NCBI RefSeq assembly: GCF_037975245.1
Contig: NC_092582.1
Span: 13,948,077 to 14,012,076 of the forward strand
Source: Apostichopus japonicus
Lineage: Eukaryota; Echinodermata; Holothuroidea; Aspidochirotida; Stichopodidae
DNA length: 64,000 nucleotides
Direction of reading: 5' to 3'
Within the stretch, counting starts at the first letter, position 1. Each line of letters opens with the position of its first letter. A model generated the notes under the pieces. The model was not told the DNA's origin, searched no databases, and saw only the letters and a list, made by a program, of their open reading frames with translations. A program made the position numbers and the translations under genes. Shown here one piece after another: positions 18,301 through 63,990 of this stretch.

Positions 18301-19407
18301 GTGGGGGTACGTGTAAGCTGGGGGGCACGATAATTGGGCATAATTGGACGTTGCTTTAGGGGAGGAAACTCTCTCAACAGTATGTGGACTTCTGGGTGAG
18401 ACTTTGTCCCTTACAGGTGCACTCTGCACCTCTGCAACAGGATTAATCTTCAGTGGGATTGGTGATTTGAGGGTGGGCTTTATACGATCTTCCACGATTG
18501 TGCAATCAATACCAGCAGAGGCACTGCCTGAATTTACCCGCTGATGAGGTGATTTAACCCTAGGCTTCAATCGGTCTTCCATTGTTTCGTGAGGTCTACC
18601 TACTGGGCCACTCCCTGAATTTATCCTCTGTTGAGGTGACACAACCCTAGGCTTCACACGATCTTCCATTACTTTGTTATGCTTAATTGTGTCACCTACT
18701 GAGTTTATTTGCTGATGTGGTGACTTTACCCTGGCCTTCAGACGATGTTCGATTACTTCATTACTAGGCTTACTTGGGTCACCCACTGAATTTATCCGCT
18801 GATGAGGTGATGCACCCCTAGGCTTCAGACGATCTTCCAAATTACTGGGCTTACTTGTATCAACCTGCACTGAACTTAACCGCTGATGTGGTGATACCAC
18901 CCTAGGCTTCAGGTGGTCTTTGTTTATAGGCTTGACTGGTGCCCCCACTGAATTTCGCTGATGTTGTGATTTTACTCTTGGCTTCAATGGTTCTTCCCCT
19001 GTTTCATAACTTCCACTTGTTGAACTGACTCGCAAATGAGGTGCACTTTGATGGCTACGCATCGGGTGGACGTTATTTGGTCTGACTGCAGCTTTATTTG
19101 GTTGCCTGTGTTCCTTACTGCGTGAACGCTCTTTGTTAGTTTTCAGAGTCAACTTCAAAGCGGAACAAAATAAATCGAAGTCGAGGGATCCATTTTGTGG
19201 TGCGACTTTCCTCAAACTCTGCAAAACGCCGTTCGGCAAACCACTTATACCATCACCCTGCCATCGCTTCTCTATTTCGGAAACCGGCACGAAACCGTCT
19301 TTGTCCTCATCTAAAATGTCGAATAAAACCCTCAAAGAGTTGATGAAAGTCTTTGGTAGTTCCACATCCCCCGAAACGGTAGGAAACATTTCAGTTACGG
19401 AAGACAT
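3314..19407 (-). CDS. SAPCD2: SAPCD2-like suppressor APC domain protein (six coding exons)
   Basis: Exons, 5' to 3' on the minus strand: 19407-17976, 16007-15835, 5596-5459, 4966-4868, 4195-4088, 3442-3314. Every junction is AG/GT and the phases join (1,0,0,0,0), giving about 692 residues. Vertebrate SAPCD2 is a cytoplasmic/cortical protein linked to APC and to spindle orientation. Residues 17-90 match its N-terminal domain (SLRVLFDILDEDKDGF, EIEKRW, VLQSLRKVAPQNG). Residues 139-323 are a long disordered repeat region. Exon 2 has RRHTLSNGIT, exon 3 the coiled-coil LKRMKDLEQERDVLHQGLDL, and exon 6 the conserved DRITSLEKEKSALIRQLFE. The protein is much longer than human SAPCD2 (about 394 residues), mostly because of the repeat. 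The start ATG has A at -3. A divergent sialidase gene begins 852 bp away. Family assignment is strong; the ortholog label (SAPCD2 rather than SAPCD1) is inferred. Confidence 0.88.
5597..7089. other. SAPCD2-like intron 2, 3' part, no gene seen
   Basis: AT-rich intron sequence with a poly-T tract at about 5808-5825. No conserved exon, RNA gene or clear mobile element was recognised. Open frames such as 6465-6656 have no support. Confidence 0.5.
7278..7654 (+). repeat. Left subterminal repeats of the transposon
   Basis: Two nearly identical copies of TTACGTACGTAACAAGGACA occur at 7278 and 7633, about 190 and 540 bp inside the left terminus. TACGTACGTA is a palindrome. Related copies sit near the right terminus, so these are candidate transposase-binding sites. 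Confidence 0.6.
8703..10571 (-). pseudogene. Transposase-like gene of the 5.9-kb transposon, frame-broken
   Basis: Minus-strand pieces: 10571 to about 10340 (basic N-terminal region with MRRYRGRIKADQECY); about 10313-10006 (FTDGCGAQYKSR, then CHGKNPCDGEG); 9810-9525 (acidic linker); 9127-8703 (EEYYAVFYDNEFYIGRLLEK, KFLHR, ending QAEL). Splice sites and phases fit for the last two joins: GTGAAA donor at 10006 to the acceptor at 9810, and GTCAGT donor at 9525 to the acceptor at 9127. A shift in the G/C run near 10110-10125 puts the CDGEG segment and the following VVKNAVTRSVK segment in different frames. The stretch that should carry the first catalytic Asp between the first two pieces is missing or out of frame. 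I read it as a decayed DDE-like transposase; exact superfamily unknown. Confidence 0.6.
11942..12592 (+). repeat. Right subterminal repeats of the transposon
   Basis: Variants of TACGnnCGTAA followed within about 20 bases by GACAGA occur near 11945, 12192, 12371 and 12553, with half-sites at 12172 and 12583. The 11945 copy is followed by an inverted GACAGATTGA / TCAATCTGTC pair and GTTACG. Looser copies occur at 11514 and, inverted, at 11745-11785. Confidence 0.55.
12993..15834. other. SAPCD2-like intron 2, 5' part, no gene seen
   Basis: AT-rich intron sequence between the right end of the transposon and exon 2. It has C-rich tracts at about 15290-15315 and repeated ACAGTA words but no recognised exon, RNA or element. 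The open frames at 14368-14634 and 15336-15614 show no family features. Confidence 0.5.
16271..16501. mobile_element. 231-bp MITE with 43-bp perfect terminal inverted repeats
   Basis: The left arm (16272-16314, starting CCGGGTCACATCTGCGCGAT) is matched exactly, inverted, by the right arm ending at 16499. TAAA flanks both sides (16267-16270 and 16502-16505), compatible with a short target duplication. The arms contain internal GCGATTCAA/CGCGATTCAA repeats. There is no coding capacity. It sits in SAPCD2-like intron 1. Confidence 0.8.
16502..17975. other. SAPCD2-like intron 1 remainder
   Basis: AT-rich with a G-run near 17686-17697. No exon, RNA gene or element was recognised on either strand. 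Confidence 0.5.
18439..18993 (-). repeat. Coding tandem repeat, seven units of about 29 residues, in SAPCD2-like exon 1
   Basis: Residues 139-323 of the SAPCD2-like protein repeat the pattern EDRLKPRVxSPHQRINS. The central serines fall at 147, 172, 200, 229, 257, 286 and 315 (spacing 25-29). The last unit diverges to LKSPIPLKIN, which fits the SxIP pattern with a basic residue before it. Basic and Ser-Pro content suggests a disordered, phosphorylatable array. Confidence 0.85.
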
Positions 19408-20259: not shown

Positions 20260-23215
20260 ATGAAATTTTTACTCTTCGCTGTCTACATTACACTAAATGC
20301 CGGTGCGTGTTTGTGTACCAATGTTAGGCCGATCGGGAACAACACAATATCCAAGTTCAACTTCAGCGTATTTAACCTTCACGATATCTCGTCTGTTAAT
20401 GTAAGAATCTATTAAAAAAAAAGCAGTTTCAGTTTCCTTCAGCTATAAATTAAGTTATACCTTTGTTCAAGCTACATGACAAGTTGTTAATTGGTCATAA
20501 ACTAGAACCAAAATTAATAATGTTTGAGGAAGTGTTGGGGGTCGGGTGGGGGAGTGAAGAGTTGACGAATGTTTTGTGAAATTTGTGTAGGCTAGGGCTA
20601 CCAAATAGAAGCGTAAAGCGTAGAAAAAAGGGACAAACTTACATAGCTTAGGGTGTATGACTAGCCTAGGCGTATGTGTAATAATGCTCACGATAATGGT
20701 ATTATTCCAATGTTGGATCCATTAAAGGATTACCAAGTCCAAATGGGGAGGGTATCACTTAGGACCATGATAATATTCTATTTGTGTAATGAGCCACATT
20801 TTACATAGCATACTGCTAGATAGTTTCACTCACTTGAACCTTAATTTAGACATAGCCTAGTAAGTAATAAAATTCCTACTGATGGTCATTACCTGTGTAA
20901 CCATGTTCAAATGTAGTAACTCAAACAGCATGTTAATTGAATGCCACATACATGATCAGTGATAATAATAAATAGCCTACTGGTCTAATATTAATAGTTG
21001 ATGTCTTTGTTCAAGTTGATACTACATATTACCACAAAATACTACAATATACAGTATATGTCATACAAATTAAGGAAAACTTGTCAACACTCCGAATCCA
21101 CTTAGACTTATAGACCTAACATTTCAAACAATATGTCAGAGATGAGGAGAATTTGTGAATTAGCATGAATCATTATGGTAGTTCTTATACATGGAACAGA
21201 ATTATGTACATTTTTTGTAAAGAGATGATAAATAAAAGGCTGTGGCTATTCTTACGACTAGTCGTAACAATTACTTATAAACTATTCTTACGACATCGGT
21301 GAATTCATGCGCAGTAAAGTAAATAAAGCAACTGCGCATGTAGTAGGGGTAACCCTAACCCAACCCCTAACCGGAAAATATTGTTACTCCTAGTCGTAAA
21401 AATAGTACTCCTAGTCGTAAAAATAGCCACGTTAAAGCAACTGCGCATGCGTAAAAGGGAATTATTGTTACGACTAGTCGTAAGAATAGCCACTTTGTAA
21501 ATAAAAGGAACTTAGTAAAGGTCTGGTTATGTTGTAAAAGAGTTCTCTTGTTTTTAGAAACCAGTAAGCCTGTTGTGTTATTGCAATGTTTGAAAGAAGT
21601 TATACTCTGATTGTACTGTAACCTATCCTTTGCATCTTCCGATGCTTACCCATTTACTGAACTAAGCTTAAAAGGCCAACTTAAAAAATTGAGAGAAAAA
21701 TATAAAACACATCCATTTTAAATAAGAACATGATTAATATGAAAATATGAATCCTATGTTACTGTATGTCCATCTGTTGTTTTATTGCAGGTTCGGCCAA
21801 GCATAATATCCCAGCAGGTGTTATGGCAAAGTGGCGAAGCTGATGTCAACATATACCGCTGTCCATTATTAACATACACCCCTGGTGGAAACTTGCTTGT
21901 TGTTGCAGAGGGAAGGAAGGGCACAGGAGATGGAGGTCTTAAGTTTATTGCTACAAGGAGATCTTCTGATGGAGGTGCAGTATATTATGTCTTCATTTAT
22001 TTTAGAATTACGAGGGCGTCCGTACATGTTGATAATATTTTATACATACGTAAATATGAATTATATTACAGCCAAATTTGACTAGCTTAGATACAGAGGA
22101 ATGCTTTTGGTTTGACAGGATATATTTATCGAAATATGAAAATCCTGGATATGCAGAAATATACATCTGCTGGAAAAGTAGGTTTTTGCTACACAAATTA
22201 AAAAAATTCAACAGTTCCTGGTTTGCAAGGTTACTAAACCTCAGACTCATCTTGTAGGACAAATCAGCTCTGTAATTATTGCCAGACCTTATTAGAAATT
22301 ACACTATTGTAACACTTCTTTGATGAAATACTTGTGTTCTTTGCTTTGGATCAAGGTTTTGAGTGGGCTACAGAGAGTTTCATCCACGACGATTCTTTCG
22401 GAGGAATGGAAGATAATCTGGGTGCTGTGTTGGTCGATGACGTCAGGAAAGAAATATACATATTTTACATCATCTGTGCCCATCCCGACACGTGCAGTAG
22501 CTCGGAGGTGCCTTCTCTAATGTACGTCAAGAGCAAGGACGATGGAATAAGCTGGAAACCTGCTGTGAATGTAACCGCTATAGCTGGACCAAAGAACTTT
22601 GCCCCAGGCCCTGGATACGGGATACAGGTACACTTTGAACATGCAAATTTAGGTCCTGAATATGACAAGCGCTTCAATGTACTTTGTGTATTCTCTTTTG
22701 GAAACAAAAAAGAAGGCTGTGTTGAATTAACTTGGCTTAGTTAATAGCTATGTGTACAAGATCAATTATGGCATTCTTTGATTGCATCATTAACAGAGGG
22801 AAAAAACACTCTATATCAGTAAAGTAGTCCTGCTGATTATCATTATGCATATTGAGTTCTACTATATTTTTATTTTTGATATTTTTCCAGAAAAAGTTGG
22901 ATCCACATAAAGGAAGGTTAATTGTCTGTGGTCACGGAGGTACCTTGGAAGTCAATGGTAATTTCTGCCTTCTGAGTGATGACCATGGTAAAACATGGAG
23001 ATGGGGAGCAGAGATGCTCCCAATACCAGCTTATACTAACAATCAGGATGGAGATTTTGTGCCTGATGAATGCCAGGTAAAGCCTTGTCAGGGATTCTTG
23101 ATTGATAGATTTTTAAACCCCTCTACCCCCCTCCACACACCTCCCTAAACAACCAGTTGTGGTCTGTCATAACGTATAAATATTTGTGGAAGTGTTTTAA
23201 TCTCGTTAAATATGA

Positions 23216-23263
<48 letters not shown>

Positions 23264-26160
23264 AAGCTCTAAAGCTTACACATTAAGCAACCAAAATTTG
23301 TTAAATTTCCAAGATTGTTGGAATACCCACATAATGTACTGTAATTTCATTAATTTTGATATCCTGCGAATGTTTTGTCTTTATTTCAAAGATGCCAGGG
23401 AAGATATTAACTGACGGTTGTTATCCCATTCAATAGGAGTAGCTTTGCCCCCTACACTGCTAGCCAGACTGAATGCAGCCTGACTCATCTCAACCTCATA
23501 GCATAGACAATCATGGATAGTTAGGCAGTGTGTACCTGTGTTTACAAATGAGACTGATCTACATTTTATCCAGTTTTTAATTCCTGTTGTCTTCAGTCGG
23601 TGGAACTGACCTTGTAAAGGTTTTCCTGAGTAGTAATCATTAGTGTGTGGGGGTGGATCACAAGAACTACACATACTCATTTTTCAAAAGGGGAAATATA
23701 CAGTTGCATGCGACCTAAGTGAGCACCAGTCGTAAAAAGCTGAAAACAGTTGTCCTTTGTGGTCACAGTGGTCATTCATGTTGCTGGGGTCATTAGTAAG
23801 ACTTAAGTTTTGGTGATGTTATTATGTAAAATTAATTCAGTTTGGGTGAGGTCTGGTTTGTTCAGGCAGTATGAAGACGGCATTATATTAATACTATGGC
23901 AGCCTTGGGCAAGCTATTAATATGTTTGCTGAGAAGCATTTTTAAGCCTACCAGTTTCTACAGTGGTGAGGTGAGACTGTACAAAAGTTAAAATTAAACT
24001 GACACAGCATGTTTGCCGGGACATAACTTTTTGGAAAAACTGCAGCTGTGCGCACATTTGAATTCATTGAAACCAAATGATTTCATCACGGTTTGGGCCA
24101 GAAAATAAATCTCCTTAACTGTCAGAATATCAACTGAAATGAAAGATTTTGTCAGCATTCCATGAAGGATATATAGAAGTTACAACCTAAAAAAGGATTG
24201 TTGTTTCTTGTTGTTCTGGCTATAGAAGAATGCTCCGGGCATCACATTCATCTTGCGTTATAAAACATTCCAGATATTTTGTTTCGTAGCAAATTATCTC
24301 ATATTTTTCAAATGTTTTCTCTTTCACTTTGTCATTTTCCCGACAGCCGATCGAGTTACCGGACGGTTCCATCATGCTTAACACCAGGAACCAATACCGT
24401 TTCCATTGTAACTGCCGCATGGTCTCCAGGAGCTATGACGGCATGGAGACCATCGCACGGGAGACGATTGGATTTGACGAAGCCTTGGTGGAACCAGCAG
24501 TATCGGCATCCATACTCAGTCACCTCGGCGTCGTATTCTTCTCCAATCCGGCTTCTGAAACAACCAGTAAGTTTTCGTCAAATTCGAAGGAAGACATACG
24601 TCTCTAGTCTGGCAGCTTGGAATTGTGAAAATCTAGTGGTAGTAATCTTTACATTAAATTAATGCTGTGGTAACAGGGGCCATGGGCACAAGGGACACAT
24701 ACACTCCCTCCTATTTTGTGTAAAGCTCTAAACTTGCCCCTTTTTGCAATGACCAGTGCCCCTTTTTAATAAAAGAGAAGTTCCCTTTTCCATGTCTTCT
24801 AATTAAAAAGTGCCCTTATGTTGAAAAATAAAAATCTAAGTCTATTTTTAAAACATCGTTTTATTAAAAATTAAAAACGAAATTAGACACAAAGCTCAAA
24901 TTTTGTCTAAGCAATCAAATATGCTAGAACAGAGTGTTGTACAGAATGCACAGTGGATCCACTTTGTAGGAACTTTCACACCAACTTTCACCTGTAAAGC
25001 TTTTTTTGGGAAAAAATGAGTTAAATAGTTATTAACTACATAGATCTCTATGATAGATTGAAAGGTCATTGTGGTCAAATGGCTTAGGCAACACACTTGC
25101 GATCTAAGGATCGCAGGTTAGAGCCCTGACCAGATCATTTACTTTGTGTCCTTGGGCAAGACACTTCATCTCCATTGCCTTCCTTTAACCATGTATATAA
25201 CTGGGGACCTGCGAGGTAACTTGCAGATATAGTTGCGGTGCGCTGGTTCGTGGCTGCATTTCATGGGAAGTCCCCTATGGGGCATGTTGATGTGGTGCAC
25301 TGTTGTGGCTCCAGGACCAACCGTTTGAATTGTGCACACTTGGGTGTGTGGGTGCGACAAGTTACCAATGACCAGGGGTTAAATGTTGTAAAAGTTGTGT
25401 GCACAGGCCTTGCCTTGCCTACAAGACTGAAAACCTTGAAACTTTTAAACTTTATCCAATTGTGTGGGTAACTATCACATGAATAAAGCAAATGGTCCAA
25501 ATGTTGGTTTATATAAGATACCCAGGAAGTGTCCCACCCATATATCAAAGTCTAAACAAGGCATCATGAAGCCCCATGTATTTCAAATGCTCTATGTATT
25601 ATCTTTAATTATTACAATGTTGGTTTTCTGTAATTTAGATGGAGTTTTTGGAAAATAGTGAACCAAAACTTTTGAACCTCGAAAAGGGAACATCTGGCTT
25701 GTGTCTCCTTTAAACTTATCTGAAGAAATTATGTCTGAGTGGAGAGTCAAAACTAAAATAGCTAAATAGAAATACACGACAGGTGTTTCGTTAACAGTTC
25801 TCACATTTGGATAAAAGTTTTTCGTTTCTGATCTTATACGAACAAACATTAATCCGGGTCTATCTCAATGCTCCATTCACCTTTTCCATTCTTCTTTATT
25901 GATTGTTTTTTTTTTTTTTGTCCCTTTCTATGCGGGCAGGAACGAACATGATGCTGAGGTGGAGTTATGATAACGGAACCACGTGGTCCGGACAACTACC
26001 CATCTGGGAATACGCAAGTGGATATAGCTGCCTGACGGCGTTTCCGGAGTCCGCCGGATTTGCGAAACAAAAATACCTTTACCTGGTATTCGAAAAAGGA
26101 AAAGAATCGTACACAGATATGATCGAGTTTTTAAGAATCAGCATAGATGGAACACTGTGA
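20260..26160 (+). CDS. NEU1: Lysosomal sialidase-1-like exo-alpha-sialidase (six exons)
   Basis: Exons: 20260-20400, 21791-21974, 22356-22627, 22891-23076, 24347-24566, 25940-26160. All borders are AG/GT and phases are consistent (0,1,0,0,1), giving 407 residues against about 415 in human NEU1. NEU1 removes terminal sialic acids from glycoconjugates in the lysosome, in complex with cathepsin A. Visible features: an N-terminal hydrophobic signal peptide ([19 protein letters not shown]); the YRCP form of the sialidase F/YRIP motif, which carries the first active-site Arg; four Asp-box-like motifs ([32 protein letters not shown]); [24 protein letters not shown]; and [13 protein letters not shown]. 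It ends in DGTL like NEU1. The gene is apparently intact. Possible plus-strand AATAAA signals at 27110 and near 27308 would make a long 3' UTR. Confidence 0.93.
20401..21241. other. Sialidase intron 1, left part
   Basis: AT-rich intron sequence before the MITE. No conserved element was recognised. The minus-strand open frame 20467-20691 is unsupported. Confidence 0.5.
21242..21493. mobile_element. 252-bp MITE with 30-bp terminal inverted repeats
   Basis: The left end starts GTGGCTATTCTTACGACTAG and its first 30 bases are matched exactly, inverted, by the right end finishing at 21493. Internal variants of ACTAGTCGTAA and ACTCCTAGTCGTAA recur, as does AACTGCGCATG. The 10-mer AAATAAAAGG lies 2 bp outside the left end (21230-21239) and 5 bp outside the right end (21499-21508), which may mark a target duplication with ragged ends. 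It lies in sialidase intron 1. Confidence 0.75.
23077..24346. other. Sialidase intron 4
   Basis: Intron sequence holding a TA-dinucleotide tract at about 23216-23252. No further structure was recognised. Confidence 0.55.
25059..25445 (+). mobile_element. tRNA-derived SINE (family 1)
   Basis: The head reads like a pol III promoter: an A-box-like GTGGTCAAATGGCTTAGGC and a B-box-like GCAGGTTAGAGCCC about 40 bases later. Downstream comes the motif TCCTTGGGCAAGACACTTCA, which recurs in tRNA-SINEs of many animals. The tail is rich in TTGTAAAAGTTGTGTGC. It lies in sialidase intron 5; boundaries are approximate. Confidence 0.6.
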
Positions 26161-29814: not shown

Positions 29815-42651
<12,837 letters not shown>

Positions 42652-50177: not shown

Positions 50178-53100
50178 TTACTTTTCGTAGGCTTTATTGT
50201 CAAACACTTGGGTACCGTTTTCAATGGTGCCGTCTGCAGGGTGCGCCGCATTTGTACCTCCTCTCAGGACCTTGGCACCTCCCATAGTAGTTCCATGGTT
50301 GTAATGGACTTCCCAAGCTTCATCTCTGAACTTCTGCACCGCAGGGCCCCACTCTTCTCTCGGATTCGACATGGCTTGCCAACGCTATCGAGGTAAGGGA
50401 AAAATTTAAACATAACGTTTATCATTAAGACAGACAATTGTTAGAGTACTCTTAAATAAGCATATACTGCGTTTCTATTGTAGTTATCTGGTCGCCTACA
50501 GAGGGAGCTCTTACTGTGATACAAACGTCAGGCCCCAAACATTTATATATTTACTGACATGTGTTCTTTACACTATAAAAGCAGTTTGTTGACATTTTTT
50601 TTATCTCTTTCGTTTTCTAAATAGCGATATCAACAAAGGAGGGAGTATATTGCAACAAGTTTGAAAAAAAAACCTCTTTGTTCTTTTCTATTGTTTATAA
50701 TTTCCCAGACTGCTTTCCGTTGTTCATTTACTTATTAATTATTTAATTAGTTAAACAGAAAGAAATCTCTTTGCTGGGGCTTGGGTGGAGGTACCACCTT
50801 GTTTGATCCCTTAGTTATGCTTAACTTCTTGGGGAATTCGTGTATACTATATTTTGAGCTTAGAGTGTTAAATTTCACAGTATAAAAAGCACTTCATATT
50901 TTTTATATATATTTTTTTATTTTCAGATATTTTTGACAGAATTCTATACCCTTTAAAGCAATACGATTCTTTGGTTTTATCATTCAAATCATTCATCAGA
51001 CATAATGAAGAAATGCAATTTTATTAAAATATCCGATTCAGTGCATGTGATTATAAATTATTACACGAAAAGTGCCATTGGCGACGAAAAATTTAAAGAT
51101 CAAAATACTTCTGCAGTTACTCGCTATAAGTAACGGTTTGAATTGTTGTGAAAAGCATGAAACAATTTTGCATCAATGGTATCAATCCATTTATTGGAAA
51201 ACAATTTATGATGGGAAAAAAATTGTACATCTGAGACGGGGACGGGAGACGGGGGGTGAAATCCAGTCCATCAAAACAGAAATTGTTTTCATCTAATTCG
51301 AATAGTTTGAAATTCCGTTCTGTAAATTAAAACCTTTGTATAACTCCTAATATTAGCCCCGAATTAGCCCTTTTCTGTTGCACAGTGTAATTTTAATGTA
51401 GACAATTTACGACGAATTTAGTTCGACTAAAACACTATACAAGTATAAATGAGAGTTATTGATTAATCTTGACCTCATAAAAGGAACCTGGTGTTCTGAA
51501 GAATTCATAAATCCAGACGATGGGAATCCATATCAGTGTGGCCATGATGATAATCCAACCAATGGCCCGGGCCCAACCTGGAAATGGTCCGTTATGCTCT
51601 GGGTCGCTCCAGTTTGTCCAATTAAAGACGAGCACAAACTGAGGAGGAAGAGAAACAATTTCAGAAATTAGATGAATTAGAAGAAATCTTGAAAGGTTTC
51701 ACTGATCGCTACACTCTGTTTCAAGCTATAATTATAATTTATGAATAATTAAAACAGACGTTAATTATTAACTGCTTGATAATTCAGTGATATATTCTGT
51801 GAGAAGATTCTGTGATATGAGGACAGTTTTGCTCAGTTTGACATGGATTGTTTTAGGGGTCGGGTTGAGTTTGAGAGAGAGAGAGAGCTGTTTGAGGTAT
51901 AGGTAAGGCGGTTGGGTGGGGGTGCGGGGGGGGGGGTATGGGTAGTCTGGGGTGTAAGGCGGTAGGTTCGTCTTCCTTCAAGGAAAGAATAATAAACAAA
52001 GTGGTGGTGAGTTTAGTTGGGCTACGTTGGCATTGCCTGTTTTTGGATGGGTATATTGTTGAGTTTGGTAAGAAGAACGAGAAGTGGGGTCGAAATGGCA
52101 TGGTTGGGGTGGGGTGGGGTCGGGTGGGAGGCTATGGTTGATCTATCTTCGAAGAAACAGAAGTACCGGGGTTTGCCTTAGTGATCCCTGTACCATTTAT
52201 TCATACTTATTAATGAACGTGAAAGCGTATGATGAGCACATGAATATGATTTTACATGGAAACAGTTCCCCAAAAGCAAATCAAGTCAAAATCTGTCAGA
52301 ACTGGATCCAATTAAAAAAAAAAAACTATCTAGCTTTAAATCAGACACGTACTGTCAGAAGGGCAATATTGTTCCACTGTTGGGATTAATTATATCAAAC
52401 AGAACAATTAAAGCTATTACCACTTCACTTTGGTGCATTTAATTAAACTCATCATGCCTTTGTTCTTATAGGGGTAATCAACTATCAAGGGTAAGTGTCA
52501 CAGTGTCACATGTAGACCCGTGCTATGCAATGTAATAAACAATTGAAATGTGAGCAGGTTTTCTTCAGTTAATTACAGTGATTTTCTTACCAGCAATACG
52601 GCAGGTGTAATCGCGACCCAGTTGAATACCCACCAATAGAAAATAGGGAAATCGACCCACGTGTCACCGACCATAGAGCGGATATCGTTACGGAAGCGTT
52701 TTATACCGTAAAACCACGATATGCCGATACATTCAAATAGGGCGAACATAAGCAGACTGAAACTGGCCCCATAGAGATCAAACAAGTCCGCCCAGTAAGG
52801 CCCGGCCTGAAACAAAATATATGCAGCATATACCGTAACAGATTATCTCAGTGAATAACAGGGTGATAGGGAGGTGTGTGGGGGGGGGGGATGGTAGGGG
52901 TGCTCGTGAAAATAAAAGAACGGCCAGTAAAATTATGTCATATATACAGATCATAAACAATCAAACTAAAATAAATGTTCAATTGCTCAACTTTATACAA
53001 ACATTACAAACGGCACGTTGTTTCAACATTCATATCGTAATAAAGGATTAATTTGCATAACAAAGTAAAGTGAGAAGTGTAATATTTAATATATTCAAGA

Positions 53101-56100
53101 GCAAGAATCTTTTTCTCCAAACGTACGAGAGAAAAAAAAAACGAAAAACTAAATGATAAGATGTTTACATAATTGCATTAATTACGCCGAATTAGATCAA
53201 TGGTATAGGTACGCACTATATACAACCTATCACGTGATTATAGTTAACTTGCTGTACAGTATCGGTAAACTATGGCTCAAATGTTGACGTCAAGTGTTAT
53301 AGTGAATATCTATGAATTCATTACCTCCGTGACACAGATAAGGCCAATCAGATATCCAATGATGCAAACAACAGCAAGAACGATGGGTTTCTTATTTCTG
53401 AGTTTATCTGGAAATTCGTCTACAATGGCTGTCACAACAGTTTCAATGATGGCGAACTGAACGGAAGAATAACGTGAACGGTTTTAATGCAATTGATTTC
53501 TTAAAAATATGACCATGGTACAGTACATGAATATTCACATATTCAACAGAAGCAATAACAAAGTGATTTGTACTTGTGGAGTTTTCTTTTCCTGTACCTT
53601 CAACTAAAGTGCATTTATCTGCGGTGACAAAGACAATCCGGAGGTAAAGACATCACGTGGTCTAGTAAAAAATGTTATTAACACTGAAGAAGGCAAACTA
53701 CAGTTCGAATTTATAGCTCATAACTCCAAGTCAATTTATACAAACCCCGCCCATCAGACCACTCTCGCCCCTCCCCCACCCCATTTCGCTAGCGACTGTA
53801 TGACACATTAGTATATAGCCTATATTGATTTCACATCAAACTATACTTTGCGACATACATTTGTATCTAGTTAGACAAATTCAAATTGTGTCTTGCCATC
53901 CAGAAACGTATGAATTTTTGGTTTATTATATATGCTATCAATCATAACCTATAACATAACAGATGCTATGGCCTTCCATGTACTAGGCCTATAGTTTGTA
54001 CGAACAGCGCCATTAACACGGTACTGTTCCTATACCGTCGGTTGCAAATAGTTAAATTGTCAATTTGGGCAAATGAACGGCAGGAGGGGCCCATTATAGT
54101 CTGTATGAACCCATGCTACCCGAGTACTCAAGGTTGACTACGGACCTGGTATATAAACCTTACCTCACTGTCGAGACCAAGGGTGAGCAACATAAGGAAA
54201 AACAGTATCGACCAAACTGGAGAGGCAGGTAGCCTAGCAACGGCCTCGGGGTAGGCAATGAACGCCAAACCGTAACCTGTGTATAAGAAAATGACTTGAG
54301 ATTGAATATAGGAAATAGGACATGAATGAGGGAAAATGTGAGGAAAATCACTATGCCCACAATATCTCACCAATCGGAGTATTCGGACTCATAAAGCGTT
54401 AGGCTAGGGCCTACAAGCCTATACCCTGCTCATTGCACAGTCTAAGTACGGTGAGATTTGGTTCTGTCTGGCCCTTCAGTGCGTCAACCAATGTTCTTTC
54501 ATGGCCCTTCTATGGGTCATTAATTTAATTTCAGCCTTTGAAACGACTTTGAATAAATGTTTAAGGCTCTTATATATCTCAGCGAGGGACAAGATATTAA
54601 ACAGTAAAATGAAAGCTAGAGACTAAAAAGTTTCCTTTTTTACACATTTTCTATATTATGTGTATAAATTTTGATATTGTTTATTGGATGCGTAAAATAT
54701 ATTTAATCATACCTTGATCAACAACATCCTCTATATCTTGATTCAGTTCATGAGCCATAAAGCCGACGATAGAGAAGATGACGAAACCAGCAAATATACT
54801 CGTGCAACAGTTAGCAATGGCTACGAACATTGAATCACTGTAAAAGAGAAGTTCCATATTAGCCAATCATATCGCAGCTTAGAAGTAATGATATATGACG
54901 TAAGAACGAAACGTAATCGTTATGCGTGTAGGATTTTTTTTTTTTTAATTTTTTTTATTTCAAATATAATATCGTACTTTTTTTCAAGTATATAATAATC
55001 GCATCGTCTGACAATGCAAGGAAAGAATATTATCTCGAATATTTGTCATATAATTTGACCAAAAAAACATATTTTTGTTATATTCAAGTTGTTTATAATG
55101 TTGAGTCATAGTTAGTGACGCGACAACCTGACGAATCAATCGCATGTCACTGAAGCTGAATAATATTCTACATATACTAAAGGTGAAACAGAATGTGGCT
55201 TAAGTAAAATCTTTTCTCCAGTTTATTTAAATTAATTCAATTATGCTTATTATACTAAGTGGAATACAAGTTTTTTCACTTTTGTAGTATTTTTTTTTAC
55301 TTAATTTAAATTTTATTTTACGTAGGCTAAATTGCATTTGACTTTAGTGAAACTTTTAGGTAAATATGACTCAAAATGAGATTATTTGAACTTAGGATAA
55401 TTTGTAATATACGATTAAGCTCCAGTAAAATACAATGAAGTATTTGAAACTTAGTAGCGCCTTTGTATTTTTACTTATAAAGCAAAGTACAATTTTACTT
55501 TAGAAAACTACAGTTATAAACTTTCATCTACTCACGCATAGCAGTTATTGTGGAACTTGTTGTATGAGGACAACGTTATGAGTCCTCCCCAGGCTGCACT
55601 AAGAGAGTAAAATATCTGAATAGCCGCTGCAAGCCAAATCTGTTATTAAAAAAAAAAAAAAAAAACGATGCAAAATTTAATATAAATTTTGAAATTCTTA
55701 AAATAAAGGTAAAGAAGAAGAAGAAGAAAAAAAAATACAGGCTATAACTCGAAGAACGTGTTGGATTTTATGCATTATCATACAACTACGTTTGTCTCTT
55801 TGTATTAATGTACTATATGTGCACTCATGACAATAATATACACATGGAGGGGGGGGGGAGGGTGGGGAGAGGAAGGTGAGAGAAGAGGACAGGAGGAGCA
55901 AATGATAACTTCAAACTTACATCTCAGACTCCATTTTAAAAAGAGCTACTCGCTGTTTACCCCCCCCCCCCCGCCTCCCTCTCTCTCCTTCTCTAGCACT
56001 CTATCTAACGCTGCAGTACCTACTGCATGTTTCGTTTAAATGACCTCCAGCCTTAGTGTGATGATTCCAAGAAAACGTCCACTTCACAACAGTTCTTTCA

Positions 56101-59100
56101 TGTTCTTCGACCTGTACTATATACAGTGCTGCACCCCGCCTAAAAGTTGACACTCGTGTGTGTATGCTTAACATAGGTGAACTAGATCTATTATGACAAT
56201 ATTTCAGTAAACACACCTGTGGATCAGCTACTCTCTCCCAGTCGGGTGTTATGAAGAATTGGATCCCTTTCTCGTGTCCTGGAAGGGTTAATCCAAGGAT
56301 TAGCAGAATGAGAAGCACTAGGTAAGGGAATGTTGCTGTGACGTAAACCACCTGCAGGGGAAATGAAAAATGAAAGAAATTTATTAAAAATTGTGCATGA
56401 CGTAATTTATTATAGTCATATTAAAAATGACAGACCTGCCAAAACTGGTTATTTCCGTTTGATTGGAAGAAGTGGGGGGTTCTTATTTTCGAACACTGAA
56501 GCTCTGTATGTATGTGTTTTAGATCCTCCTGTAAGCAGGAACTTGCGAAGAAGCCTCATTGACTTTATCAAAGCCGCAAGCTGACCGAAGTCAGTCTCTT
56601 ACATTCATATTTAACGTCTATGATTATGAATTGTCAACAATTCTGTAACTGGACGACATACATTAATCTTGGAGTGACTCGAACCGGGGACCTTAGGATT
56701 GAAAGGCATCGGAGTTAACCACTGAGCTAACACACCACTGATTTGGTAGTATTAGGAGCTTTAGAGCGATTTGGATGACAATGACGAAGAACAAGACGGA
56801 CTCACGAAATGCCACAGCTATATTAATATATTATAATATTTAAATAAATGAAAGAATCGTAGTCTTTTTATATTTCTTCATTTTTGACATTTTTTGAGAG
56901 TTTAATCGTGTATCATGAAGTATGAAAGACTGTTTTCACACAAATCCTGCCCCGCCTCCTCCCGCTCCCTCACCATGGGGATATATGGCTGAGACCTGAT
57001 GAAAATCTACTAATACAGATACGATCCGCGCCTTTTACAGTACTCTAAACAGACAATAAGTGACCTTCCCACATAGGCGTGAGTTTATTTCCATTCTTAT
57101 ATAATAAGAGATGCTCGCTCCATTCGAATGAACCGACCCTTAATCCTTCGCTAGTAATAACCCACTAAAAGCTTTCAATTTGAATCTCATAGCCTACCTA
57201 TACCAACCTGCCTTGCAACCTGGTTTTTATTTATATTGTATGTATTGTAAGTAATTAGATCCTCCTGCAAGCAGGTACTCGCGAAGAAGCCATCATTGGC
57301 TTATCAAAGCCGCAAGCTGACCGAAGTCAGTCTCTTAGATTCGTATTTAACGTCCATGATTATGAATTGTCAATTGTCAACAACTCTGTAACTGGACGAC
57401 ATACATTAATCTTGGAGTGGCTCGAACTCGGGACCTTATGATTGAAAGGCACCGGCGTTAACCACTGAGCTAACACTCCCAAGATACCAAAGTAATATGC
57501 ACACAGTCAAGCGTTGGCATGATATCAATATAATTATTTTATATTAATGAAAATTGGGTGTGTGCCCAAAATAAATATCACGCTATAGTAATAAAATGAA
57601 TGCTGTTTAGTTCATGCGTCATACTGACTGTAACTGGACGACATACATCAAACTTGGAGTGACTCGAACTCGGGACCTTATGATTGAAAGGCACCGGCGT
57701 TAACCACTGAGCTATAACACTCCTGGATATTTTACTCCTATTGTATAGATACATGCATGTAGGATTTTGTACCTTTCCAGATGATTTGATGCCCTTAATA
57801 AGGCAAACATAGACAATTATCCAGGCAGCTGCCAGACATCCAGCTAGTGGCCAAACGATGCCCCCAGTCTCTCCCATGGATGCTGCCTCTCTACGAACCT
57901 CCAAACTAAAAGAAAGAGAAAGAGTAGAAAAAACAAAGACAGCTATCAGAACAGAAAACAGTTGTAGTACACGCATGCACGGACCCCGAGACAGGTTTAA
58001 GAGATATGGTTATGTGTGTCAGGTTATGAAGAGTGTAAATTGCATAATATTTCTCCAAATGTTACGTCTTTTTTACGTTAATTTTGTACTATGTTGTTGT
58101 GGGCAAATTGTATCGGTACTATGCTTTGTACACGCCGTAGCGGTCGCACAACGATGTGTTGAAAAGTACCGAGTCAGAAGGGCCCCCCATATCCACAGGT
58201 TCAAAGGTTATGACAAAACTTTTCCAAACAAAAGCTGCCTATAGATGGCGCTATCATTGTTTGCTTATATCGGTAAACTTTTAGAAATGTGATAGCGCCG
58301 CCGATTTCTTCTACGCGAACCCGTCTTTAATAATCCCTGACGCCGAAAGTATAACTGATTCGTAAGCAAGATTGTCCGTGTTACAAACGAAAGAAAATGT
58401 TTATAGCACATTGCGACAGAATGCAGGTCATATTTATGTCACATGACGTCATTGGTATGAATCCACATTTTGTCCACCATAATTTGTTGTTTTTTTCACA
58501 CTTCGGTTATCTGTAACTAACCACGAAAATAAGAGAATGAAGAAAAGCAACAAGGAAACTTAAAATAACGATGTCTTTCTTTAAAAAAAAAAGATCTAAT
58601 TGATTAATTTATCGATTAAACTGATTGTTTGATGTGTTGCCCAAAAAAAATCTAACGGTATTGAGATTTTAGACATTGAGGGAAAAATTCCCAAAGAAAT
58701 TGATGGCTAGAAAACGGGATTTCGAACCAGTGGTCTATGGATTTGTATTGAGCTGCTATGGTCTTGTTTGTAAACAGACATTTCTTGACATTTGTCCTTA
58801 TACTTGTGATATAGAGGACAGCATTATAAATTCGGATAAGGTTAACAAAATATCTTAACATTAAAGGCATTGAAGACTCGCTCCAAACCGCGTGCGAAAT
58901 AGCTGAAATAGTTAACTTTCTGTTGCTTGCAAGTGACGTTTTGTTCGTGTCGCTACAAAATGCAGACAGTAATGAAACGTGATACCTTGTTGTCTTTAGC
59001 TGGACCTGAGATGTCCATCGCTGTATCGTTTGTACACTGTGCCGTGAGTATTGACCGCAGCTGTATGTACTGACTGTACACTAGTGTCTAATTACCGACG

Positions 59101-62100
59101 GTAGTAAGCTTTGTGTGTATTTTCTGGGATCGATGGTGGTGTTTAACACTTCTGTTACACCTATTCGAAACTAGGTCAAATTACCGGCATTTAGACGTTT
59201 ATTTTTGCGCGAGTCTTCACACCCTTTAAGACAAGCAAAAGTAAAGACTTACTTCCAGTACTCTTCGCTGGGTCGAACTCTCTCAGCAGCCAGTGGGTCG
59301 GTTAAATTATCCAACGAGTAATTGCCAGCCGAATAGGTAACCACTCCACGCGATATCCTCTCCTCCTCCGATAGAATCCCAGGATCGACACAAGTACCAT
59401 TCTCTAAGAACACGGTTCCGTTGTCCTTACAATCGGTGAACCTTAAACTACAACGTTTGGTGTTCCAGTCGTTGTCACAGTCAACCCAAGGTAGTTTAGT
59501 GGTAAAGGAAGCGATGAGATACCGAATACAATAAGTGATGACGATATTGTAGGACACGCCCACTGTGGCCGATACCACCATCATACCATAAGCAACACCT
59601 GAAGAGGAAAACAATAAGTGATGACGATATTGTAGGACACGCCCACTGTGGCCGATACCACCATCATACCATAAGCAACACCTGAAGAGGAAAACAATAA
59701 GTGATGACGATATTATAGGACACGCCCACTGTGGCCGATACCACCATCATACCATAAGCAACACCTGAAGAGCAAACACAATAAGTGATGACGATATTAT
59801 AGGACACGCCCACTGTGGCCGATACCACCATCATACCATAAGCAACACCTGAAGAGGAAAACAATAAGTGATGACGATATTATAGGACACGCCCACTGTG
59901 GCCGATACCACCATCATACCATAAGCAACACCTGAAGAGGAATACAATAAGTAATGACGATATTATAGGACACGCCCACTGTGGCCGATACCACCATCAT
60001 ACCATAAGCAACACCTGAAGAGGAAAACAATAAGTGATGACGATATTATAGGACACGCCCACTGTGGCCGATACCACCATCATACCATAAGCAACACCTG
60101 AAGAGGAAAACAATAAGTGATGACGATATTATAGGACACGCCCACTGTGGCCGATACCACCATCATACCATAAGCAACACCTGAAGAGGAAAACAATAAG
60201 TAATGACGATATTATAGGACACGCCCACTGTGGCCGATACCACCATCATACCATAAGCAACACCTGAAGAGCAAACACAATATAGTAAGGATGTATAGAA
60301 ATGATCAAAAAGGACTGCTATGAATGCAACAACATTTTTTAACCATAGTCTTTCCTACATAAAGAAAGAAGAATGAAACAAGAAGAATGAAGGGAAAAAA
60401 ACTGGTCATCCAAATAAATATGTGCAAATTGCTAATCAGGCTGGACATATATTTAAAGTGAGATAATAACGACATAGTTCATCGTTTACCCAACAGGAAT
60501 TAGGGACAAAATAGATCCTTTAAATGGAGACATTTACTTTTATAAGTGGCGGAAGTGGGGGGGGGGGGTTGTGGGGGCGGTTATTCACTTTTGGCGTGTG
60601 CATTGTGACATTTGGAACCTATGTAGGACCGATCCTCAGCTCTAACAGTCTTGTTACACAATTGACATCTCATAAAACAAAGTGCCTAATTATATGGCTT
60701 ACTGCAGCGACATAGTTATATTACCGGTTTGACATGTTACCTCTGACCATATAGGTAGTTTCCCCCCCCCCCCACTCCCCCCACCTCCCGCGGCACCCTC
60801 ATGTCTTACACACTATCATAACAATACGTTGTGTTACCTCTCATCATAGGAAGTGCCTTCCATGCCTTGATAGGACCTTGACTGCAATACTGGCCAAAAC
60901 TGACTTCCAAGAAGAAAAGCGGTAAACCAGCAAGTAGTAGCATCGTAATGTAAGGGATGAGAAACGCTCCTAACAATAGAAAAGGGGGAAAAAAGGAGCA
61001 TACAAAAACAAGGCGAGGTCATGTTACTGTAAACGCATGTAATTGAATTTGGTTAGTATGGAATATATTAGAACATGGATTACGGTGGGTGGGTAGGGTC
61101 GAGTGGGATAGGTGGGTAAATTGTGCAGGTATATATGGGGTGAGGGGAAGATTTTCCAATTAATTTAAATATCATTTCGGTTCCCCCTCCCCCACCCTTT
61201 ATTAGGTTGTTTAAATAGCATAAATATCATAGATTTTCTTGTAAATAGCTGTTTCCGCCGAATGGCGTTTGTTTAAAGGTAGACTGTCTCTTTCATATAC
61301 TCATACTAGAACCCGCCCTCTGTTGTCTAATCAGCAGATACATGTCACTGAAGTTCAAGGATGGAAGATGAAAGAATGTCAAAATTCTGGTTTGTTTGAT
61401 TGTCATCTTCGGGAGGTAACAAAGGATTTTGATTCGAATTTCAATAATATTTGATTTTATTTTTTATACTAGCTGCACTATTTGTTTTGAAGATTAATCA
61501 TTGACTATGTTGGCGTGACATGTACACTGTGTCTGTTTGACGGGAGTAAAGGCTACATTTCAAAGTTCAAGAATGTAATTAAATTATCTGGATCTTCTAT
61601 TTCGATATCAAGGCCATATCAGATAGGAAGATCTTACATACATAAAGTTTATGGTTTTATATCATATTTAGTCATAATTTATGGGTATAACCAAATATAC
61701 ACCCTGCAGGGTCTATCGGTAATCTCTGTGATAAAATATAATGTATTTATGGAGTTGATGTTAGATATGGTAACAGGTTTTGTGTTCCGTGATAATTCAG
61801 TAATGAACATTAACAATGTGATACACTGGCATGGCTTGATTATAATCAAGTTTAATTGAAAATGACCAAATCAATGTCAAAACTAAGTTGAAAGTTGAAA
61901 GTTTGCTTTTATGAATTTGAATGATACGCTTATATGGAAAACTGTCTGGGCGACGAAATCTTGAGACTTTTTGACAGATTCTTTATTTTATCACACACGC
62001 ATTTACCAATTCTGACCGTGTTGTTACATCCTGGTTTTCCCACAAACCCCATTTCTGAACCAATGTTGTTATTGATATTGTGTTGATTTGGTTAACTTTT

Positions 62101-63990
62101 TGGTTATTACCTGATCATGAAATATCATTAGAGAAAATGTTCTCTATTTATAAGTTTGAATATTTCTACGTTTCATTAATAAACAACGAAGAAGAGAGAT
62201 ATGTTTCTTAAATGATAATTATTCCACCATTGATTATCGTGGCCTATAAATTATGTAAATAAGTAGGCCATCATTTGATGAACAGTGGTGAAGCTTGAAC
62301 ACGAATTCAACCAAAAATGTTGTATTATGGTAAGATGTATGTATGTATGTATGTGTGTATGTATTTTGGATGCTCCTGCAAGCAAGAACTCGCAAGGAAG
62401 CCATCATTGGCTTATCAAAGCCGCAAGCTGACCAAAGTCAGTCTCTTAGATTGATAATGAAATGTCATGATTGTCAACAATTCTGTAACTGGAAAAAATA
62501 CATTAACCTTGGAGTGACTCGAACTCGGGACCTTATGATTGAAAGGCACCGGCGTTAAACTGAGCTAACACTCCCAAGATACCAAAGTAATATTCACACA
62601 GTCAAGTGTTTGCTTTTCTATCTGACCGAGAACTTGAACAAAAGAATTTCAGGTCCTCGGTTGTGATTTCTAAAGAATCACCACGTCCTCGGAAGAATTC
62701 TATTGTATGGGGTATTGTTAAGGTTAGGGTACTTGGATTTGAACAATGGAAAATACAATGGGGCCCTCGGTTGGAAAAACATATGTGTGTTGGCATGATG
62801 TCAATATAATTATTTTATATCAATGTAAATTGGGTGTGTGCCCAAAATAAATATCACGCTATAGTAATAAAATGAATGCTGTTTATTTCATGCGTCATAC
62901 TGACTGTACATGAGTCATTTACCATGGTTCCCGAACAAGAGCCGTCGCCATGAATATGCTTACACGTGATACACAGAGGTCAACAACTAATTTTCAAATA
63001 AGAAAGCTATTGATTGATGTCCGATAATCCGGTATGGGGAAAAATATAACCCGGATGTGGATATTTTTTATGAGAGGTCAGGCGGGTCGGAAAGGGTGTT
63101 ACGTTATTTGTGTTCTTTGCATATACTAATGAATTGTCAGGTGAGTCTTTGCAGAACGGTCATTGCCATCGATAATGCCAATCCACGCATTGATCGATTC
63201 TCGATAAAGTAGATAAAGAACCCGGATGTGGATATGTCTGTACTCAGGGAGACGAATCATTATAACAATGACCGAGCTTGTACTGACGAATAAATATCAC
63301 AGTTTTGATTATTTCTTTCGGCAACCCTCAGGATCGATCAATCAATCAATTACCCGTAATTGGTAATGATGAAACAAGAACAAAGGATATGTTTAACCAT
63401 ATTCTTTCATTAGTTGTATTTATATATCTTTAAAAGAAACCAAGAGCAAGACATATGAAAACTATTATCAGTATTCAGATTTTCGTGTGTTATATTTTGT
63501 TATTGTTACTGTTGTTGTTATTGTAGTTGTGTATGTCTATTAATGATTCAGAAGTATTCGTCAAAGCAAACGATAATAATCTTTCACTCTGCAGGGATGT
63601 ATAAATTTAAAAGGTAACCTTCCACTTTCTCCCATTTCCAAACTTCTCATCTTATCCGAATCTACTTATTTTGTGCTTTCTTTCTTATTTAACAAAATTG
63701 CGACAAAAGTATCACATGACGAAAGAACCGTAGAGAGCTAGCAGTCTTGGTAATCGTGCAATATACTGGCAGAATTCGACTGTAACTACATGACAAAAAT
63801 GTAAAATGAAAGAAAAAAACAACGAAGATTATGACAGACACTTACCTCCACCACTCTCGTATGCAAGATACGGGAACCGCCAGACATTACCAAGCCCTAC
63901 TGCATAGCCTAAACATGACAAAATGAAATCGGCTTTGTTACCCCAGTTGCCCCTTTCTTCATTCTCATCGCCCTTGAACGAAAGAGCAGT
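50178..63990 (-). CDS. SLC6 Na+/Cl- dependent transporter, glycine-transporter-like, copy B (5' end outside window)
   Basis: Twelve exons on the minus strand: 63990-63846, 60969-60838, 59598-59253, 57905-57773, 56351-56217, 55639-55536, 54837-54713, 54276-54164, 53456-53325, 52806-52591, 51638-51474, 50384-50178 (stop 50178-50180). This gives 650 residues; the first coding exon, short in copy A, must lie beyond 64000. Exon lengths and phases equal copy A except the first visible exon (145 against 142 nt) and the last (207 against 222). Signatures: [25 protein letters not shown] in loop 2, [47 protein letters not shown]-type tail ([11 protein letters not shown]). The TM6-TM7 junction codon is Ala (NNCYADS) where copy A has Ser. 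The donor after 51474 is GTCAAG, weaker than usual. A minisatellite abuts the 59598 acceptor. Tandem paralog of copy A; substrate unknown. Confidence 0.92.
56506..56735 (-). mobile_element. tRNA-derived SINE (family 2)
   Basis: Minus-strand copy: tRNA-like head at the right (TTAGCTCAGTGGTTAAC) and tail GCTTACAGGAGGATCTAAAA plus CATACA repeats at the left. It lies in a copy B intron. Confidence 0.85.
57241..57481 (-). mobile_element. tRNA-derived SINE (family 2), best-preserved copy
   Basis: Read on the minus strand from 57481: TGTTAGCTCAGTGGTTAACG (A box), CCCGAGTTCGAGCC (B box), a body with GACTGACTTCGGTCAGCTTG, then CTTGCAGGAGGATCTAATTA and a TACA tail. It is about 240 bp long. The whole copy and its right flank reappear at 62336-62920. 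Confidence 0.88.
57630..57727 (-). mobile_element. SINE family 2 head fragment
   Basis: Only the tRNA-like head and early body (CCAGTTACAG end) remain, just right of the duplicated flank. Read on the minus strand. Confidence 0.75.
57906..59252. other. SLC6 copy B intron between the 59253-59598 and 57773-57905 exons
   Basis: No conserved exon, RNA gene or recognised element. The open frames 57858-58244 (plus) and 58652-58870 (minus) partly overlap an exon or lack family features. Confidence 0.5.
59528..60276 (-). repeat. 83-bp minisatellite of splice acceptor plus exon start, nine units
   Basis: Units begin ACAATAAGTGATGACGATAT (plus sense) at 59528, 59611, 59694, 59778, 59861, 59944, 60027, 60110 and 60193. 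Spacing is 83 bp, once 84. The first unit is the genuine 5' end of the 59253-59598 exon plus its acceptor. Each further unit repeats the acceptor (TCTTCAG then GTGTTGCT on the minus strand) and the codons [20 protein letters not shown]. 83 is not a multiple of 3, so reading through several units changes frame. Two junctions carry the GAAGAGCAAACACAATA variant that also adjoins the outer intron (59771 and about 60268). Confidence 0.95.
60286..60837. other. Remainder of the SLC6 copy B intron upstream of the minisatellite
   Basis: Contains G-rich (60556-60585) and C-rich (60762-60785) simple stretches and no other recognised structure. Confidence 0.5.
60970..62335. other. SLC6 copy B intron after the TM1 exon, left part
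   Basis: No exon, RNA gene or clear element recognised. The plus-strand 114-residue frame at 61515-61859 has no family features. Confidence 0.5.
62336..62578 (-). mobile_element. tRNA-derived SINE (family 2)
   Basis: Near-copy of the 57241-57481 SINE in the same orientation, with a (TGTA)n-type tail at the left, followed on the right by the same flank CCCAAGATACCAAAGTAATA. Part of a dispersed segment shared with 57241-57643. Confidence 0.85.
62579..63845. other. SLC6 copy B intron after the TM1 exon, right part
   Basis: 62579-62925 repeats the flank at 57482-57643, except for about 180 bp (62611-62790) present only here. The rest is ordinary AT-rich intron with no recognised feature. Confidence 0.55.

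Follow-up and report, generated by a model that had tools for sequence, protein, structure and literature searches.

The SLC6 gene described here poses the question of how an intact transporter message can be obtained from a locus at which the border between an intron and an exon has been copied nine times, head to tail. The border is that of the TM3 exon in copy B, one of two related SLC6 genes (copies A and B) on the minus strand of a 64,000-nt stretch of Apostichopus japonicus DNA, the whole of which was analysed and is referred to as the window.

Host gene and copy A

Copy B was modelled as 12 exons from TM1 to the stop, with a reading frame that is open across all of them, and its product of 650 aa shows a profile match to PF00209 over the length of this SLC6 profile (E 4.4e-197, positions 1-523 of 524). 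The best PDB relatives are GlyT2 chains, and the host is, judged by its sequence, a gene for a glycine-type transporter. Comparison with copy A revealed 487 identical residues among 649 aligned and equal lengths for the ten exons from 2 to 11, including the TM2 exon (132 nt in both copies) and the TM3 exon (346 nt in both). The features needed for the analysis are as follows (a slash marks a splice junction).

29815-40395, minus strand: SLC6 copy A, used for comparison, with a single acceptor at the corresponding place
50178-63990, minus strand: SLC6 copy B, the host gene, over its 12 modelled exons
60838-60969, minus strand: TM2 exon of copy B, before the array, donor GAG/GTAACA; phase and length match copy A 38844-38713
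60264-60323, minus strand: flanking intron sequence, including the linker TATTGTGTTTGCTCTTCAG and what is probably the ancestral acceptor; a CTTAC 23 nt upstream resembles a branch site on a simple motif score alone
60181-60263, minus strand: unit 1, 83 nt, GT...AG
60098-60180, minus strand: unit 2, 83 nt, GT...AG
60015-60097, minus strand: unit 3, 83 nt, GT...AG
59932-60014, minus strand: unit 4, 83 nt, ending in TATTGTATTC plus CTCTTCAG, a putative founding junction by comparison with unit 9 and the flank
59849-59931, minus strand: unit 5, 83 nt, GT...AG
59765-59848, minus strand: unit 6, 84 nt, with the flank linker GTTTGC joined at TATTGT; unlike any other unit, could be retained in frame
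59682-59764, minus strand: unit 7, 83 nt, GT...AG
59599-59681, minus strand: unit 8, 83 nt, GT...AG; TAC is common to units 8 and 9
59253-59598, minus strand: true TM3/EL2 exon, 346 nt, donor GAA/GTAAGT; length equal to the copy A exon at 38303-37958

Anatomy and age of the array

Analysis of the 64-kb window with TRF placed a tandem array at 59524-60282 (period 83, 9.1 copies, 98% matches), the score of which (1444) is far beyond chance. Nine CAG/GTGTTGCTTATGG sites lie in register on the minus strand, their first exon bases being 60263, 60180, 60097, 60014, 59931, 59848, 59764, 59681 and 59598, and the spacing from unit 1 to unit 9 is 83 nt five times, followed by 84, 83 and 83 nt. An earlier note on this DNA had described a minisatellite made up of an acceptor together with the beginning of the TM3 exon, which the TRF result and the in-register sites bear out. 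Its further statement that nine units each carry TCTTCAG/GT and the exon start holds for units 1-8, which begin with the TM3 sequence GTGTTGCTTATGG... and close with TCTTCAG after a pyrimidine-rich run; unit 9 consists of the first 75 nt of the true exon (59598-59524) and continues into it. The AG/GT motif is present at nine of nine junctions, and each of units 1-8 is thus a GT...AG segment. Seven of the eight full units measure 83 nt, while unit 6 owes its 84 nt to the linker that follows TATTGT, which reads GTTTGC in this unit, ATTCC in unit 4 and TTTCC in units 1, 2, 3, 5, 7 and 8. The array was found at one place in the single assembly searched (671,581,487 bases, 35 contigs).

Over the 71 nt derived from the exon, the units differ from one another by 0.78 on average and by 2 at most, whereas each differs from copy A by 27-28. 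Divergence between the two copies amounts to a pS of 0.70 and a pN of 0.15, from which a hand-written Nei-Gojobori count gives a dN of ~0.16 and a dS of ~2, the latter being saturated. The gene pair is therefore old and constrained, and the array young. The previously proposed order of events, with the array arising after the A/B duplication, is supported by these figures, and the single plain acceptor attributed to copy A was confirmed in its sequence.

Other repeats and open frames were observed as well. A coding minisatellite (87 bp, 4.5 copies) occupies window positions 18528-18912 inside a 498-aa open frame, the N-terminal part of which matches SAPC2_N (PF25825), and a perfect array of the pentamer ACTAA spans positions 31529-31798 (54 copies, 100% matches). 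Open frames with Asp-box-like motifs lie at 21743-26160 on the plus strand, one piece carrying SYDNGTTW; they may belong to a sialidase, and two other pieces gave no Pfam match. Elsewhere in the assembly, COX1 pieces occur at several sites of a second contig (C29, 31,219 bp; L050, L051), which may represent a copy in the nuclear genome or else a mitochondrial concatemer that was assembled wrongly. A repeat that begins with a tRNA-like head (GTTAGCTCAGTGGTTAACGCCGGTGCC...CCGAGTTCGAGTC) occurs in dispersed copies near positions 56739, 57491, 57718 and 62558 of the minus strand and near 34049 of the plus strand, and is perhaps a SINE family; SINEs make up only 0.02% of the A. japonicus genome in the table of the assembly paper (PMC10344927).

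Reading frame and splice-site strength

Among the nine acceptors, only acceptor 9 (59598) keeps the frame when the remaining units stay in the message, in agreement with the earlier claim of eight extra acceptors upstream of the true one. Entry at acceptors 1-5, 7 or 8 with retention of the rest leads to a stop 33 codons past the junction, and entry at acceptor 6 to a stop 61 codons past it: one unit is read as 28 codons in the normal frame, the next is frame-shifted and a TGA is soon reached. The addition of 27-55 out-of-frame residues, calculated in the same earlier note, needs to be replaced by these values. When all sets of retained units were considered, 254 of 255 were not open, the sole exception being unit 6 alone, which adds 28 aa in frame. 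A full-length transporter therefore needs the removal of all eight units, or the retention of unit 6 only.

Acceptor and donor matrices were built from 80 acceptors and 85 donors belonging to ten SLC6 genes, two of which are copies A and B. This filtered model was substituted for a first one (96 donors, 99 acceptors), which was discarded on account of false sites where the match overran the exon; the TM3 acceptor of copy B was excluded from both acceptor models. Over 23 nt, the array acceptors outscore 62 (unit 1), 68 (unit 7), 78 (unit 5) and, for the other six units, all of the 80 real acceptors, values that are high partly because the exon bases GTG are included; with scoring restricted to the 20 intron bases, the corresponding numbers are 43, 50, 65 and 80. 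Acceptors 2, 3, 4, 6 and 8 are identical to acceptor 9 over the 23 scored bases, and it is thus solely the proximity of the exon donor that singles out the latter. The donor contained in the units, CAG/GTGTTG, scores 4.42 compared with a median of 7.8 for real donors, outscoring 6 of 85 (19 of 96 in the unfiltered model), and 382 of the 3849 GTs on the minus strand of the window reach at least its level. By the simple motif score, the best branch-like motif belongs to the first acceptor. RNA structure was rejected as a selector of the last acceptor, since the units fold no better than shuffled sequences (z -0.01 and 0.54 for three folded units, two of which are identical).

Origin of the array

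The end of unit 4 offers a possible view of how the array began. Its first part, TATTGTATTC, is exactly the exon sequence after TGT (in unit 9, TATTGTATTCGG), and its second part, CTCTTCAG, is exactly the intron end (in the flank, GTTTGCTCTTCAG). Read in this way, it would be a founding junction that is still legible, with 75 nt of exon joined cleanly to the last 8 nt of intron to give 83 bp. The TTTCC linker of six units is one change away from the ATTCC of unit 4, and unit 6, which ends with the flank linker GTTTGC at the shared TATTGT, points to at least one further exchange involving the flank. On this view, an 83-bp segment made up of 8 bp from the intron end and 75 bp from the exon start would have been duplicated in tandem recently, and amplification to nine units would have followed by slippage or unequal exchange. 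As in intron gain by tandem duplication, a GT...AG segment appears to have been created by the duplication.

Recurrence in the gene family

Splice sites inside arrays with a period of at least 10 numbered 4 of 166 in the ten SLC6 genes and 0 of 54 in four further stretches (4 of 220 overall), in a sample that is non-random, its loci having been selected by matches to TM3 and the array under study accounting for one of the four sites. The four comprise the TM3 acceptors of copy B and of a distant paralog as well as two donors present in duplicate; those outside copy B are located as follows.

L044:3490-3907 (C15:12688000-12697999): TM3 acceptor array of a distant SLC6 paralog, acceptors 3514, 3620, 3724 and 3828
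L042:3062-3364 (C2:3350000-3359999, near 3.35 Mb): duplicated SLC6 donor TTTCT/GTGAGT with 13 nt of exon, two 152-bp copies
L036:2619-2723 (C22:23595000-23604999, near 23.6 Mb): duplicated SLC6 donor ACCGAG/GTAT, two 56-bp copies (12619-12723 in joined-stretch coordinates)

The paralog array on C15 consists of units of 106, 104 and 104 nt followed by the exon, with four acceptors. It is taken to be independent of that in copy B, since unit length and sequence differ and AG/GT is absent from its four junctions. Its decoys have drifted, unit 1 carrying a 2-nt insertion and an early stop and unit 2 a G to T change in the first exon base (missense), as expected of copies that are skipped. In the 194,000 bases sampled, which include the window, 8.25% of the sequence lies in arrays with a period of at least 10, from which ~14 of the 166 sites would be expected in arrays by chance (own arithmetic). 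An excess of arrays at splice sites was therefore rejected, first by the 4 sites found and then by the 0 of 54; splice sites are, if anything, array-poor. Arrays accompany 2 of the 22 TM3 exons examined, which were taken from at least 24 places (2 without a locus were left out), and these are too few to say whether TM3 is a hotspot; in 4 of the 22 (L010, L018, L021, L029) the match starts some bases inside the exon, where an acceptor-only array could be missed.

Explanations for the splicing of the locus

The preferred explanation, to which a probability of about 0.7 is assigned, is that of a mirage-type minisatellite: the TM2 exon would be joined to the last unit (59598), and units 1-8 would leave with the intron as a neutral by-product. 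The array unit spans the intron-exon border, the units copy a splice signal and the host gene is otherwise intact from TM1 to the stop, as in mirages. The spliceosome would pick 59598 as the copy that makes an exon with the donor at 59252, exon definition from this donor favouring direct joining to unit 9, and occasional use of an upstream acceptor would lead to an early stop and presumably to RNA decay. The drifted decoys of the C15 paralog speak for skipping, and the preferred reading is further favoured by the open frame of the host gene, by the regular splicing reported for amphioxus mirages of like build and by the abundance of arrays in this genome. Against it, both variable sites in the exon-derived part of the copy B units are silent, unlike the C15 drift, and are too few to mean anything. 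Under a simple scanning rule, the spliceosome should take the first strong acceptor that it meets beyond the branch site, which, together with the best branch-like motif at the first acceptor, counts against the choice of unit 9. With nine near-identical strong acceptors, one of which would be chosen, the locus offers an unusually clean natural experiment in which exon definition can be set against scanning. Clean skipping is no general rule either: where human genes carry variable repeats at exon-intron boundaries, repeat-retaining transcripts also existed for 66% of the intron modifications (PMC2812944).

The units could also be spliced out piecemeal, with entry at any acceptor and removal of the rest as newborn introns of 83-84 nt or sums thereof. 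As the units are GT...AG segments in register, all 256 paths (acceptor 9 preceded by any combination of acceptors 1-8; own count) would give an identical mRNA, and the array would buffer itself. The AG/GT at every junction favours this reading, as do a donor that is weak yet within the range of real ones and the intron gains by tandem duplication described for potato (across a boundary) and fission yeast; it is nonetheless considered unlikely in view of the low score of that donor, the commonness of equally good GTs and the existence of a sister array on C15 without AG/GT at any of four junctions. Direct joining and unit-wise removal yield the same mRNA, and RNA-seq of the mature message therefore cannot separate them. 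The broader proposal that the array is a splice-path-degenerate element of eight consecutive potential introns, and mirages an intron nursery in echinoderms, is speculative and improbable; if true, the AG/GT register would let a minisatellite grow within a splice site harmlessly.

Selection on array length is doubtful to a greater degree. More units would mean more mis-spliced, decaying RNA, and array length would set transporter output; each of the eight upstream acceptors does lead to a premature stop, and the copy number of the amphioxus BflGb6 mirage differs between haplotypes (6 and 3). However, the scarcity of splice sites in arrays relative to their share of the sequence fits selective removal better than recruitment. 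A role of the 84-nt unit 6 as a cassette exon, by which a second TM3 would be inserted in frame, is hardly credible: although unit 6 forms the only open set, its inclusion requires the weak GTGTTG donor, and an additional helix would be expected to upset the SLC6 topology. Assembly errors commonly fall in tandem repeats, and an artefact therefore had to be weighed. It is very unlikely here, as the units differ from one another at several places and the array, at 0.76 kb, is short compared with the HiFi reads (mean 14.7 kb) from which the published A. japonicus assembly was built (PMC10344927).

Comparison with known systems

The kind of structure is already described. A mirage, a tandem repeat across an exon-intron border, was named in amphioxus Adh3 (NAR 2002, as related in PMC3087553 and PMC3902484), and amphioxus mirages are also reported in the globins BflGb6 (PMC3087553) and BflGb9 (PMC3087553; PMC3902484), in TnC and, as similar repeats, in PGBD5 (PMC3902484). 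That of BflGb6 resembles the present array in combining the 3' intron end with the 5' part of an exon (exon 2), with six and three units in two haplotypes, and RT-PCR suggests that regular splicing of the amphioxus globin mirages is undisturbed (PMC3087553). The shared traits are border-spanning copies in tandem, with AG/GT signals in many of the amphioxus units. The differences lie in the echinoderm host, in AG/GT at each junction, in unit size (83 bp here, 150-160 bp in BflGb6 and 10-72 bp in Adh3) and in the present case being known from the sequence of one assembly. In the accessible portion of the open-licence literature, no report of mirages in echinoderms was found. What the present case adds is an echinoderm host, a second array at the TM3 exon of a paralog, a putative founding junction that can still be read, corrected values for the frame arithmetic and the convergence of 256 paths. 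Mirages are thereby suggested not to be confined to lancelets and, in this echinoderm, to recur within one gene family, twice at the TM3 exon, so that the origin of introns through tandem duplication could be put to the test in an animal that is very probably farmed.

Intron gain by tandem duplication has been described for a potato gene, in which the duplication crosses an intron-exon border (PMC4974935), for ATP2A1 (as cited in PMC4974935) and for SPOG_01682/SOCG_00815 of fission yeast (PMC3629103). The likeness to the potato and fission yeast cases is that duplications copying splice or proto-splice sites can create an intron, whereas the present array would place eight consecutive candidate introns at the end of an intron that already exists. 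Boundary minisatellites with possible new introns are likewise described for human segmental-duplication genes (PMC2812944). These differ in involving recent paralogs, in their transcript evidence and in the repeat often being kept in an alternative transcript. Recursive splice sites, finally, are zero-length exons in which the acceptor is directly followed by GT. The junctions of the array share this GT right after the acceptor, but are without a strong GTAAGT-type donor and stem from repetition.
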